In this document: piece after piece, positions 8,780-28,008 of the stretch
Layout: each line of letters starts with the position of its first letter
Position numbering within the stretch: position 1 is the stretch's first letter
From: Chryseobacterium taklimakanense
GTDB lineage: Bacteria; Bacteroidota; Bacteroidia; Flavobacteriales; Weeksellaceae
Length of the DNA stretch: 64,000 nt
NCBI RefSeq assembly: GCF_900187185.1
Contig: NZ_LT906465.1
Location: forward strand, 1,798,001 to 1,862,000
Reading direction: 5' to 3'
Notes under the pieces: model-generated
The model's database searches: none
What the model saw: only the letters and a program-made list of their open reading frames with translations
What the model was told of the DNA's origin: nothing
Translations under genes and position numbers: made by a program

Positions 8780-10006
8780 ATGTATTCAGTAATTGACATA
8801 GAAGGCAACGGCGCAGGTTTCCGGCAGGAAAGTATTATTGAGGTCGCGATTTACAGATATGACGGCCACGAAATTGTGGACCAGTTCATTTCGTTGGTAA
8901 ACCCCGAAAGTGACATCACCAGCTTTGTACAAAAACTCACCGGTATCACTCCAAAAATGGTGAAAACTGCCCCAAAATTTCATGAAATTGCCCGCAGAGT
9001 CATCGAAATTACAGAAGGAACCACTTTAGTTGGGCATAATATCGATTTTGATTACAGAATGCTTCGCCAGTCGTTTAAAAGGTTGGGCTACGACTACAAA
9101 ATCAATATTCTAGATACGATTCCGCTTGCTAAAAAACTGATTCCCGATGCGGAGAGTTATTCGCTCGGTAAACTGGTAAAATCTCTGGGAATACCTTTGG
9201 TGGAACAACACAGAGCAGGTGGTGACGCCCGCGCGACTTTAGATTTGTTTAAACTTCTGATTTCCAAAGATACTGATAATGAAATCATCCAAAGCCAGCA
9301 CGACGAAACCAACGCCAAGACTTATGTGAACAAAATTCGCGACCTCACTCAGGATTTACCGAACGAGCAGGGAATCATCTACTTTCAGGATGCGGAAGGC
9401 AAGATTCTCTTTTCGGATTTTGTGGATGATATCAACCGGTTTGCGAAAAAAATTTTTAACTCAAAATCAAAGAAATGCAAACCGCTTCAGGAAAATTCTG
9501 CACAGATACACTACGAACTTACAGGAAATGTGGTCGTTGCAAAGCTCTTGATGAAAACAAAAGGCATCAGAAAGAAGGAAAATCTCCCATTCGGATTGTT
9601 TCACCGTAACGGTAAATATTTGGTCGAGAAGAATGCGCTGGTTGAGAATGAAAAACCGTTGGTGAAGTTTAAATCCTTTACCCAGGCATTAAAAGCTTTG
9701 AATTTTATTAAATCAAAAGAAGAATATTCTGATGTTAAGGAGTTTACCAAAAAAATCAACCTTAAAAAGCGAAATGAAGTCTGGACGACTAACGGCAGAG
9801 TTTTAGGAGAAAAAGCTTTTCTGCTTTTCGAAAACGGAAAACTCACTTCGTTTGGATTTTATGAATTTCACACTCAGATTCAGACAAAGGAAAAAATTAA
9901 TAAACTCAAAATCAATATTCCGGGATCTGCCCAGGATCTTCAGAATGACCTGAAACTGGCGCTAATCAGAGGTGATATGGAAATAATTCAAATGCCTGAA
10001 AAGTAG
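8780..10006 (+). CDS. DnaQ-type 3'-5' exonuclease with degenerate GIY-YIG-like C-terminal domain
   Basis: 408 residues. Residues 1-160 are a DEDDh exonuclease: Asp6 and Glu8 (DIEGNG), Asp89/91 (GHNIDFDYRML), His144 and Asp149 (EQHRAGGDA). After a short linker, residues 193-260 read LPNEQGIIYFQDAEGK then ILFSDF and later YELTGNVVVAKLLM, which follows the layout of the UvrC/Cho N-terminal nuclease (LPxxPGVYxFxDxxGxxLYVGKA ... ELEALLLE). The GIY motif survives only as GIIYF and the YIG motif is replaced by FSD, so the second nuclease is probably inactive. Such exonuclease-UvrC-like fusions are known in Bacteroidota and Actinobacteria. The remainder (270-408) is Lys-rich without a recognised motif. 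The lysA leader promoter starts immediately after the stop codon. Confidence 0.8.
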   Translation: MYSVIDIEGNGAGFRQESIIEVAIYRYDGHEIVDQFISLVNPESDITSFVQKLTGITPKMVKTAPKFHEIARRVIEITEGTTLVGHNIDFDYRMLRQSFKRLGYDYKINILDTIPLAKKLIPDAESYSLGKLVKSLGIPLVEQHRAGGDARATLDLFKLLISKDTDNEIIQSQHDETNAKTYVNKIRDLTQDLPNEQGIIYFQDAEGKILFSDFVDDINRFAKKIFNSKSKKCKPLQENSAQIHYELTGNVVVAKLLMKTKGIRKKENLPFGLFHRNGKYLVEKNALVENEKPLVKFKSFTQALKALNFIKSKEEYSDVKEFTKKINLKKRNEVWTTNGRVLGEKAFLLFENGKLTSFGFYEFHTQIQTKEKINKLKINIPGSAQDLQNDLKLALIRGDMEIIQMPEK

Positions 10007-10014
10007 TATTTTTG
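10007..10014 (+). promoter_or_regulatory. -7 box for a leader transcript ahead of lysA
   Basis: TATTTTTG begins at the first base after the exonuclease stop codon and matches TAnnTTTG perfectly. No convincing -33 TTG is visible. Transcription would begin near 10020, giving a leader of about 215 nt before lysA. A perfect 10-bp palindrome TTTGCGCAAA sits at 10024-10033 where a repressor could bind. Confidence 0.5.
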
Positions 10015-10052
10015 CAAATGAATTTTGCGCAAATGACGAATAACCATTACTT

Positions 10053-10154
10053 TTGACGGAATTTTTTAAGAAAAATAAAAAATTGAAAACGGTTTATGCA
10101 TCAAAAAAGGGTATGAAGAAGGGAAGCAAAAAGTTCTCTAAAAAACCTGTATAA
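10053..10154 (+). CDS. Candidate lysine-rich leader peptide upstream of lysA
   Basis: A frame of 33 residues from a TTG at 10053, or 13 residues from the ATG at 10113 (MKKGSKKFSKKPV). The long form contains 13 lysines out of 33, mostly as adjacent pairs. It ends 32 nt before a terminator hairpin that is itself just upstream of lysA, the last enzyme of lysine synthesis. No Shine-Dalgarno is visible, which is normal in this phylum, and the long form lacks an ATG. Treat as a hypothesis: base composition alone (AAA-rich spacer) gives lysine codons easily. Confidence 0.35.
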   Translation: MTEFFKKNKKLKTVYASKKGMKKGSKKFSKKPV

Positions 10155-10216
10155 AATTGAGCCGTTTTCTGTATATCATTGCGAGGCAGGCTCTTTTCGG
10201 GAACCTGCTTTTTTTT
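10085..10216 (+). promoter_or_regulatory. Candidate transcription attenuator of lysA
   Basis: Three visible parts: GAAAACGG at 10085-10092 and its exact complement CCGTTTTC at 10162-10169, which would enclose the lysine-rich frame; a terminator-like hairpin GCAGGCTC/GAACCTGC (one mismatch) at 10186-10208 followed by eight Ts; and CCTGT at 10146-10150, which can pair with GCAGG of the terminator and so compete with it. This arrangement is what peptide-dependent attenuators use, but the hairpin could also simply end an upstream transcript. No lysine riboswitch core was recognised. Confidence 0.4.
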
Positions 10217-10235
10217 AATAATTAAAAGAAAATAT

Positions 10236-11435
10236 ATGACAAACCAGGATTTAATCAACATCGCCACAGAATTCGGGACGCCGGTATATGTCTACGATGC
10301 GGAGTCGATTAAAGAACAATATGGGAAGCTGAAAAATTCCTTTTCAGATAACACAAGATTTTTTTACGCCTGTAAAGCTTTGACGAATATCAATATTCTA
10401 AAATACGTCAATCAGCTGGGTGCCGATCTCGACTGCGTTTCGATCAATGAAGTAAAACTTGGCCTGAAAGCCGGTTTTGAACCTGAGAGAATCCTGTTTA
10501 CGCCAAATTGCGTTGACCTTGCAGAAATAGAGGAAGCCATGGCTCACAAAGTGCACATCAATATCGATAATATTTCGATTCTGGAGCAGTTTGGCAATAA
10601 ATACGGAAACTCATATCCAATTTTTATTCGTGTAAATCCACATATTTATGCTGGAGGTAACCATAAAATCTCTACTGGGCACATCGATTCCAAATTCGGG
10701 ATATCGATTCACCAGATGCGCCACATCGAACGTGTAATGAAATCTACAAATATTTTGGTGGAAGGGCTTCATATGCACACCGGAAGTGAGATCAAGGATG
10801 CCGATGTCTTTCTGCAGGGCCTGGAAATTATGTTTGAACTTTCGGAGCATTTCCCGGATCTGAAATACATCGACATGGGAAGCGGTTTCAAAGTGCCTTA
10901 CCAAAAAGACGATATGGAAACCGATGTGCAGACACTCGGAAAAAAAGTGGAAAAGGTATTCACCAGCTTCCTGAAAGAAAGCGGGAAAGACCTTCAGTTA
11001 TGGTTTGAACCTGGAAAATATTTGGTTTCAAAATCGGGGCATTTTTTGGTAAAAGCCAATGTGATCAAGCAGACCACGGCGACGGTTTTTGTGGGCGTGA
11101 ATTCTGGGTTTAATCACCTGATCCGCCCGATGTTTTACGATTCTTACCACATCATTGAAAACCTTTCAAATCCAAACGGCCCGGAGCGGATCTATACTGT
11201 TGTCGGGAATATCTGTGAGACCGATACTTTTGCGTGGGACAGAAAAATAAACGAAGTGCGGGAAACCGATATCATCGTTTTTAGGAATGCCGGCGCGTAT
11301 GGTTATGAAATGAGCTCAAATTTTAATTCAAGATTAAAGCCGGCTGAAGTTTTCTACATTGATGGTAAAGCGCATCTGATAAGGAAAAGGGATGAATTTG
11401 AAGATTTACTGAAAAATCAGATTGAGGTTTTGTAA
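10236..11435 (+). CDS. lysA: Diaminopimelate decarboxylase
   Basis: 399 residues from the ATG at 10236; an in-frame start at 10179 is rejected because it would begin inside the terminator-like hairpin region and its extra residues do not match the family. Fold-type III PLP enzyme: the PLP lysine in FFYACKALTNINIL, HMHTGSEI, GSGFKVPY (Gly-rich phosphate loop), EPGKYLV, the acidic CETDTFAWD and GAYGYEMSSNFNSRLKPAE at the C-terminus. It converts meso-diaminopimelate to lysine in the cytoplasm. Aspartate kinase and asd of the same pathway are elsewhere in the window, so the pathway is not one operon. A leader with a lysine-rich frame precedes it. Confidence 0.95.
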   Translation: MTNQDLINIATEFGTPVYVYDAESIKEQYGKLKNSFSDNTRFFYACKALTNINILKYVNQLGADLDCVSINEVKLGLKAGFEPERILFTPNCVDLAEIEEAMAHKVHINIDNISILEQFGNKYGNSYPIFIRVNPHIYAGGNHKISTGHIDSKFGISIHQMRHIERVMKSTNILVEGLHMHTGSEIKDADVFLQGLEIMFELSEHFPDLKYIDMGSGFKVPYQKDDMETDVQTLGKKVEKVFTSFLKESGKDLQLWFEPGKYLVSKSGHFLVKANVIKQTTATVFVGVNSGFNHLIRPMFYDSYHIIENLSNPNGPERIYTVVGNICETDTFAWDRKINEVRETDIIVFRNAGAYGYEMSSNFNSRLKPAEVFYIDGKAHLIRKRDEFEDLLKNQIEVL

Positions 11436-18164: not shown

Positions 18165-18248
18165 TACCCCAGACGGGACTTGAACCCGTACGTCCTTGCG
18201 GACACAGGATTTTAAGTCCTGCGTGTCTACCAATTCCACCACCAGGGC
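18165..18248 (-). tRNA. tRNA-Leu (anticodon UAA)
   Basis: 84 nt on the reverse strand. Acceptor GCCCTGG at the 5' end, D-arm GGTGGAATTGGTAGAC, anticodon stem CAGGA/TCCTG with loop CTTAAAA (anticodon TAA), a long variable arm TGTCCGCAAGGACGT as expected for a class II tRNA, and T-loop GGTTCAAGTCC. CCA is not encoded. Confidence 0.95.
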
Positions 18249-18261
18249 GAAGTAGAAAATG

Positions 18262-18334
18262 AGCGAAAAACGGGACTCGAACCCGCGACCCCAACCTTGG
18301 CAAGGTTGTGCTCTACCAACTGAGCTATTTTCGC
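18262..18334 (-). tRNA. tRNA-Gly (anticodon GCC)
   Basis: 73 nt on the reverse strand. Acceptor GCGAAAA pairs with TTTTCGC, D-arm GCTCAGTTGGTAGAGC, anticodon stem CAACC/GGTTG with loop TTGCCAA (anticodon GCC), and T-arm GCGGGTTCGAGTCCCGT. CCA is not encoded. Middle gene of a three-tRNA cluster. Confidence 0.95.
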
Positions 18335-18376
18335 AAAAAAAATTTCTAAAATCAAATTTTAGAAATTTACAAAAAG

Positions 18377-18458
18377 TGCGGATGAAGGGACTCGAACCCC
18401 CACGCCTCACGGCACCAGATCCTAAGTCTGGCGTGGCTACCAATTACACCACATCCGC
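18377..18458 (-). tRNA. tRNA-Leu (anticodon UAG)
   Basis: 82 nt on the reverse strand. Acceptor GCGGATG pairs with CATCCGC, anticodon stem CCAGA/TCTGG with loop CTTAGGA (anticodon TAG), long variable arm TGCCGTGAGGCGT, T-arm GGGGGTTCGAGTCCC. First gene of the cluster in transcription order. Confidence 0.95.
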
Positions 18459-27792: not shown

Positions 27793-27808
27793 CGGAATAT
27801 TTTCCGCA

Positions 27809-27882
27809 ATAGGGATAGTAGCGGAAATCCTTTTGTATGAAATGGAAAAGCGGGGCACAAAAGATTGCAGCGGATAGCCCGG
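27809..27882. repeat. Flavobacterial-type dispersed intergenic repeat, copy B
   Basis: Starts AATAGGGATAGTAGCGG, continues AAATCCTTTTGTATG, then GGCACAAAAGATTGCAGCGG and ends ATAGCCCGG. The pair ATCCTTTTGT/ACAAAAGAT forms a stem, closed outside by GGGATA...-type and TAGCCC-type edges. Shares GATTGCAGCGG and AGCCCGG words with copy A at 6080-6173. It lies in the 244-bp spacer between sufS and the serine hydrolase gene, just upstream of the sufS promoter. Confidence 0.6.
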
Positions 27883-28008
27883 TTTTGTAAAATGCGTGGT
27901 TTATGGGTTGGCTTTACAAAAATTGCCCTTACTGAAATTAAAGAAAGCTGCGCCCAATCCTTCGGACACGCAATGCTAATTTTATCTGGCAGAAATTATT
28001 TCTGAAAT

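Follow-up and report, generated by a model that had tools for sequence, protein, structure and literature searches.

The lysA locus and its leader

The window analysed here, a stretch of 64,000 nt from Chryseobacterium taklimakanense (contig NZ_LT906465.1), carries lysA, the gene for diaminopimelate decarboxylase (10236-11435, + strand; TIGR01048 equivalog above cut-off, E 9.1e-112), which is the gene taken here to be regulated. Upstream of it lies a gene for a DnaQ/DEDDh-type exonuclease (8780-10006, +), which stands outside the proposed attenuator. A spacer of 229 nt separates the exonuclease stop codon (TAG, ending at 10006) from the lysA ATG at 10236. An earlier note on this DNA had placed a Lys-rich leader frame and competing hairpins in this spacer (10007-10235), and the leader features that it named are all present at the coordinates that it gave. 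The fold of the leader RNA beats 198 of 200 dinucleotide shuffles (z -2.38).

The probable leader promoter is of the Bacteroidota -33/-7 type (10025-10055, +), with TTG at 10025-10027, a spacer of 20 nt and the box TACTTTTG at 10048-10055. A TAnnTTTG/A box is found 18-29 nt 5' of the leader ORF in 67 of 67 leaders, and TAnnTTTG has been mapped as the sigma-A -7 box of F. psychrophilum in the transcriptome study of that bacterium (PMC9723704). A second TAnnTTTG match, TATTTTTG (10007-10014, +), directly follows the exonuclease stop codon. It is the box that the earlier note had picked out and it does exist, but the box at the conserved distance from the ORF is TACTTTTG; TATTTTTG may possibly act as a weaker promoter.

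The true leader ORF is most likely the frame of 23 codons at 10083-10154 (+), which starts with TTG, ends with TAA at 10154 and would encode MKTVYASKKGMKKGSKKFSKKPV, a peptide with 9 Lys. It is read in this way because its start lies 153 nt before lysA, in agreement with most relatives (148-158 nt); its length and its KG----SK core match theirs as well. The TTG start codon is unusual among the relatives and counts against reading the element as an attenuator. The frame preferred previously, a TTG frame of 33 codons with 13 Lys (10053-10154), is indeed open, but its start falls inside the conserved -7 box, and the ORF of 23 codons is preferred to it. An ATG within the same frame, at 10113, gives MKKGSKKFSKKPV.

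Conservation, coding selection and distribution

Upstream regions were gathered through LysA, from named genomes and from genomes of the family, because a direct DNA search across the family picked up nothing beyond short matches of A/T-rich or terminator sequence. The frame, the Lys codons and the terminator are kept in Chryseobacterium, Epilithonimonas, Kaistella, Halpernia and Cloacibacterium rupense, so that the conservation check in close relatives proposed with the first reading came out in its favor. The ORF in the spacer has 23 codons in Chryseobacterium and Epilithonimonas (type MQNFKQNKTGKKGAVKFSKVWNI), 25 in Kaistella and Halpernia (type MKVLNSIKKVASKGKKFFSKAYSVE) and 31, with the same core (SSKGKKHFPK), in C. 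rupense; in each case, a hairpin with a T run stands between it and lysA. Across 67 non-redundant leaders, the -7 box, the length of the ORF (23-25 codons as a rule), the position of its stop codon, the terminator and the order of the parts are all kept, with 4-9 Lys per leader. The leader also stays with lysA where the exonuclease gene is more distant (gaps up to 1.8 kb). Riemerella, Elizabethkingia, Cloacibacterium normanense and some Kaistella-related species have a lysA upstream region without the leader. The presence of the leader in C. rupense (L033) vs a 98-nt gap without it in C. normanense (L038) represents a gain or loss within one genus.

These comparisons bear on the simplest alternative, namely that a constitutive terminator of the upstream transcript stands in an AT-rich spacer whose Lys-rich frame reflects chance composition. 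AT-rich spacers do yield Lys codons, a caveat already entered in the earlier note, and the terminator could end the exonuclease transcript. However, the 9 Lys in the 23-codon frame exceed those in all 20,000 base shuffles, the Lys content is above that of composition-matched shuffles in 5 of 5 leaders tested, and frame, Lys codons, promoter box and antiterminator are kept even with the exonuclease gene at such distances, which leaves a chance origin of the Lys codons contradicted and this explanation highly improbable.

The frame carries a coding signal (pN/pS 0.48 and 0.30 in the two main leader groups), and the other two reading frames contain stop codons in all leaders but one. Among the 24 Kaistella-type leaders, Lys 8, 13, 15, and 16 are found in 24/24 and Lys 20 in 23/24, AAA and AAG being freely exchanged. 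Lys is the majority residue in 7 of 24 columns, and five of the six columns conserved to at least 95% (K8, K13, G14, K15, K16, and K20) are Lys. The core Lys columns show a pS of 0.91 and a pN of 0.006, against 0.44 and 0.31 in the other columns, a contrast which is descriptive since the core columns were picked for their conservation; by this computation, the core Lys codons appear to be under purifying selection. In the 38 Chryseobacterium-type leaders, K5, K11, K12, and K19 are invariant, as are several other residues, and the mean conservation of the Lys columns (0.89) is hardly higher than that of the others (0.86). The conserved non-Lys residues in this group are F, V, W, N, and G, and RNA pairing explains part of their conservation.

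The placement of the Lys codons is also constrained. No Lys occurs in the last four codons of the Kaistella- and Chryseobacterium-type leaders (0 of 248 codons), as against 367 of 1164 codons elsewhere in them, and in 63 of 65 leaders the distance from the last Lys to the stop is 4 or 5 codons. The last Lys of the window leader itself stands 2 codons before the stop. Many Chryseobacterium-type leaders (L034-L055 and similar) carry A-AAA-AAG, a dnaX-type slippery heptamer, in frame at the in-ORF hairpin (codons 10-12). The heptamer is not conserved, being replaced by GGG-AAA-AAG in most Kaistella-type leaders.

Of 247 Weeksellaceae genomes, 131 from 8 genera carry a match at E 1.2e-4 or better to a covariance model (R1) built from the alignment A1 of 54 leaders. 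This count was made by hand from the match table and leaves out the match in genome G025, which falls in the terminal part of a peptidase-like gene, has no lysA behind it and is taken as chance. The 30 best matches have lysA downstream without exception (30/30), and within the 247 family genomes the model found the element with confidence at no gene other than lysA. The same ORF core recurs, together with a compensated hairpin, in a distant leader (L296) that had no part in building the model. Searched against 295 genomes of the class, the model gave no match besides the organism's own genome, two other members of the family among the listed genomes remaining unmatched; likewise, no comparable leader was seen in 20 lysA upstream regions from other families, 13 of which are from the Flavobacteriaceae side (family f3). 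The element looks confined to part of the Weeksellaceae, as a family invention tied to one gene. In four genera (g10, g17, g22, and g29), LysA is clearly more distant (E about 1e-140 to 1e-160) than in the leader-bearing genera (1e-223 or better), which suggests a gene replacement.

Conservation at the peptide level would also fit a functional basic small protein of 23-25 aa that is co-located with lysA and has no part in its control. Yet the peptide has no Pfam or NCBIfam match, it is found with confidence only at lysA, its N- and C-terminal residues differ between groups, and its core sits between the covarying RNA elements described below, and such a function is scarcely credible.

RNA pairings and the position of the ribosome

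The spacer contains an intrinsic terminator (10186-10216, +), in which a D arm (10186-10194) pairs with an E arm (10200-10208) in a stem of -10.4 kcal/mol followed by a run of eight T (10209-10216), as had been noticed at the outset. Four nucleotides after the leader stop codon lies an antiterminator segment, C (GAGCCGT, 10159-10165, +), which can pair with D at 10186-10193. C:D and D:E share the D arm and are therefore mutually exclusive. A hairpin within the ORF, A:B (10120-10139, +), joins AGGGAA (10120-10125) and TTCTCT (10134-10139). These pairings were scored on A1, with 500 shuffles and slid registers as controls. In the terminator D:E, 92.0% of cells are paired and 49 carry changes on both sides; the corresponding figures are 89.9% and 21 for the antiterminator C:D and 92.8% and 53 for the in-ORF hairpin A:B, with 0 of 500 shuffles reaching them in each case. 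All three pairings beat every shuffle in paired cells and covariation score, and every slid register as well. The number of pairs with double changes, taken alone, is not clearly above the shuffles, and relatedness of the leaders thus inflates part of the covariation. Clear independent compensations do occur, as in leader L077, where the post-stop GAGU has become GAUU together with a change of the terminator arm from ACUC to GAUC. C:D contains a mismatch in three Chryseobacterium leaders (L204, L213, and L215).

The competing hairpins first recognized by eye are thus borne out by covariation, while the segments involved had to be corrected. CCTGT, initially named as the competitor of the terminator, is present at 10146-10150 but is not conserved; the competitor kept in relatives is the GAGC/GAGU segment right behind the leader stop, here GAGCC. 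Cloacibacterium rupense and a related MAG (L033 and L032) have the antiterminator segment inside the leader ORF (GAG CTG CAA TAA) instead of behind the stop. Similarly, the 8-bp stem between GAAAACGG (10085-10092) and CCGTTTTC (10162-10169) exists and can be extended to 12 bp, its 5' arm at the start of the ORF (10085-10096, +) pairing with 10158-10169, but as such it is local to this genome. It is the window equivalent of a pairing in Kaistella-type leaders, in which both C and the end of the ORF are partners of early codons (79.6% of cells paired, reached by 6 of 500 shuffles, i.e., modest support). The Chryseobacterium-type leaders have no outer stem covering C. Where it occurs, the outer stem is predicted to sequester the antiterminator segment when the ribosome is absent. 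A further pairing, B:C, between the FSK codons and the post-stop segment looks good by eye and would be expected in a strict 1:2/3:4 scheme, but it is not above the shuffles.

A structured leader with a terminator and an antiterminator ahead of a metabolic gene could also be a riboswitch or a protein-binding leader, its RNA being bound directly by a metabolite or protein with no role for the ORF. Against this reading, Rfam gives no match near threshold and no lysine riboswitch among the matches up to E = 10, no aptamer-like domain is conserved, sequence and length being free to vary both ahead of the ORF and between C and D, and the frame is under coding selection. Direct binding is therefore considered very unlikely.

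The coupling of these pairings to translation was modeled by folding the RNA up to the end of arm D with a ribosome footprint at each codon, reaching 15 nt upstream and 12 nt downstream of the first base of the A-site codon; this is a simple model, and its codon-level details are uncertain. With the ribosome at the stop codon, no leader of the two main groups retains C:D in constrained folding, nor does the window leader. With the ribosome up to about three codons before the stop, C:D is usually still able to form, and when it stalls at Lys 8, C:D forms in 96% of the Kaistella-type leaders, in all Chryseobacterium-type leaders and in the window leader. The capacity to form C:D drops once the ribosome is 2-4 codons from the stop, immediately past the last Lys codon, and the usual position of this codon (4-5 codons before the stop) approximately coincides with the latest stall at which the antiterminator stays free. 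In the window leader, the antiterminator is strong for stalls at codons 2-10 and 19-22 and weak for stalls at codons 11-18. A ribosome stalled at the last Lys allows the early codons of some Kaistella-type leaders to pair with C again, so that only earlier Lys codons would work there. Without a ribosome, the window leader and several Kaistella-type leaders sequester C and form the terminator by default, whereas Chryseobacterium-type leaders do not.

The element in front of lysA is real and conserved and very probably a translation-coupled attenuator, and lysine is its most probable signal. The modeled geometry, which follows the logic of the trp and his attenuators, is well explained by a classical ribosome-mediated transcription attenuator, which would in all likelihood couple lysA expression to the supply of charged lysyl-tRNA. 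Transcription would begin a few bases past TACTTTTG (10048-10055), and a ribosome would translate the 23-codon leader behind RNA polymerase. When lysine is ample, the ribosome would quickly reach the stop codon and cover C, D:E would form, and transcription would end before lysA. When lysyl-tRNA is short, the ribosome would stall at a Lys codon, with the outer stem opened and C left free to pair with D, so that the terminator would be blocked and lysA transcribed. We infer that the leader is translated, that termination takes place in vivo and that lysine starvation is what is sensed. The proposal of the earlier note, control of lysA by lysine supply through leader stalling, is thus supported by conservation, covariation and stall geometry, with the long frame, the competing segment and the first -7 box wrong in detail.

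A stall could alternatively be brought about by the nascent peptide itself, with KG....FSK arresting in the exit tunnel when free lysine or some other small molecule, and not lysyl-tRNA, is the signal. In the Chryseobacterium-type leaders, G, V, F, S, V, W, and N are indeed invariant or nearly so, and pN/pS is 0.35 outside the core Lys columns. However, only the K, G, and S/T-K positions are kept across all groups, and the G, F, and S codons form the covarying in-ORF hairpin. Moreover, a stall induced by lysine would turn lysA on at high lysine, the wrong sense for a biosynthetic gene, and peptide arrest in place of attenuation appears quite improbable. A hybrid of attenuator and sensing peptide, in which the conserved KG----(F/S)SK peptide aids the stall or acts in trans after its release, is an unlikely addition to the attenuator.

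Relation to known systems

Lysine genes are controlled in cis by riboswitches and T-boxes. The lysine riboswitch (L box, RF00168) and the lysine T-boxes resemble the present element in that lysine genes are switched by lysine supply, often via a terminator, but they sense free lysine or uncharged tRNA-Lys by RNA folds, and no such fold is present here: a search of the window and the leader against Rfam (E up to 10) gave, for the leader, only sub-threshold chance matches, with no lysine riboswitch and no T-box among those listed. With the classical attenuators of Proteobacteria and Actinobacteria (trp, his, thr, leu, ilv, and phe), the element shares a short leader ORF in which codons for the end product abound, the placement of control codons slightly ahead of the stop codon, an antiterminator and a terminator that exclude each other, and a T run before the first structural gene. 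Unlike them, it combines Lys control codons with lysA, is found in Bacteroidota behind a TTG/TAnnTTTG promoter, and has an additional covarying hairpin within the ORF. The class of mechanism is thus classical, while the amino acid, the gene and the lineage appear to be new.

In the literature, Seliverstov et al. (2005; PMC1262725) count lysine among the amino acids under riboswitch control, naming the L box, and assign histidine, threonine, and phenylalanine to attenuators. Leader-peptide systems, earlier seen only in Proteobacteria and Actinobacteria, were later extended to Firmicutes (Naville and Gautheret, 2010; PMC2965389), and the regulation predicted upstream of lysQ in Lactococcus lactis is histidyl-tRNA-dependent (Korolev et al., 2016; PMC4833913). 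The closest likeness in the same class of bacteria comes from the transcriptome of F. psychrophilum, which gave clues for leader-peptide attenuation before amino-acid biosynthesis operons, its main text naming neither lysine nor lysA (PMC9723704). SEP5 of Sinorhizobium meliloti, a small ORF that is translated and lies in a 5'UTR, has three Lys codons and was proposed to be a leader, but threonine codons dominate in it, it precedes aspartate dehydrogenase, and the passage devoted to it offers no structural evidence (PMC10117765). No lysine-codon leader peptide or lysine attenuator was found described in Rfam or in the open literature searched, an absence which is not proof; within these sources, the initial impression that lysine attenuation of lysA is an undescribed mechanism holds.

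A lysine-codon attenuator would fill a gap among the amino acids sensed by stalled ribosomes and provide a conserved example for Bacteroidota, where cis-regulation is poorly described. The control would sit at the single step dividing lysine supply from cell-wall diaminopimelate. Acting on lysA alone would save lysine synthesis and spare the cell wall, which makes sense because the substrate of the enzyme, meso-diaminopimelate, also feeds peptidoglycan.

HisG (PF01634) and IlvD (PF00920), sought as sites of other attenuators for comparison, have no match in the organism's own complete genome, while the controls match in 13-14 of 14 cases; the organism, which has kept lysA, is on this count probably a histidine and branched-chain amino acid auxotroph. 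Elsewhere in the window, three tRNA genes are clustered at 18165-18458 (-), and a Flavo-1 RNA (RF01705, 54.4 bits), a motif of unknown function, lies at 27798-27888 (+).
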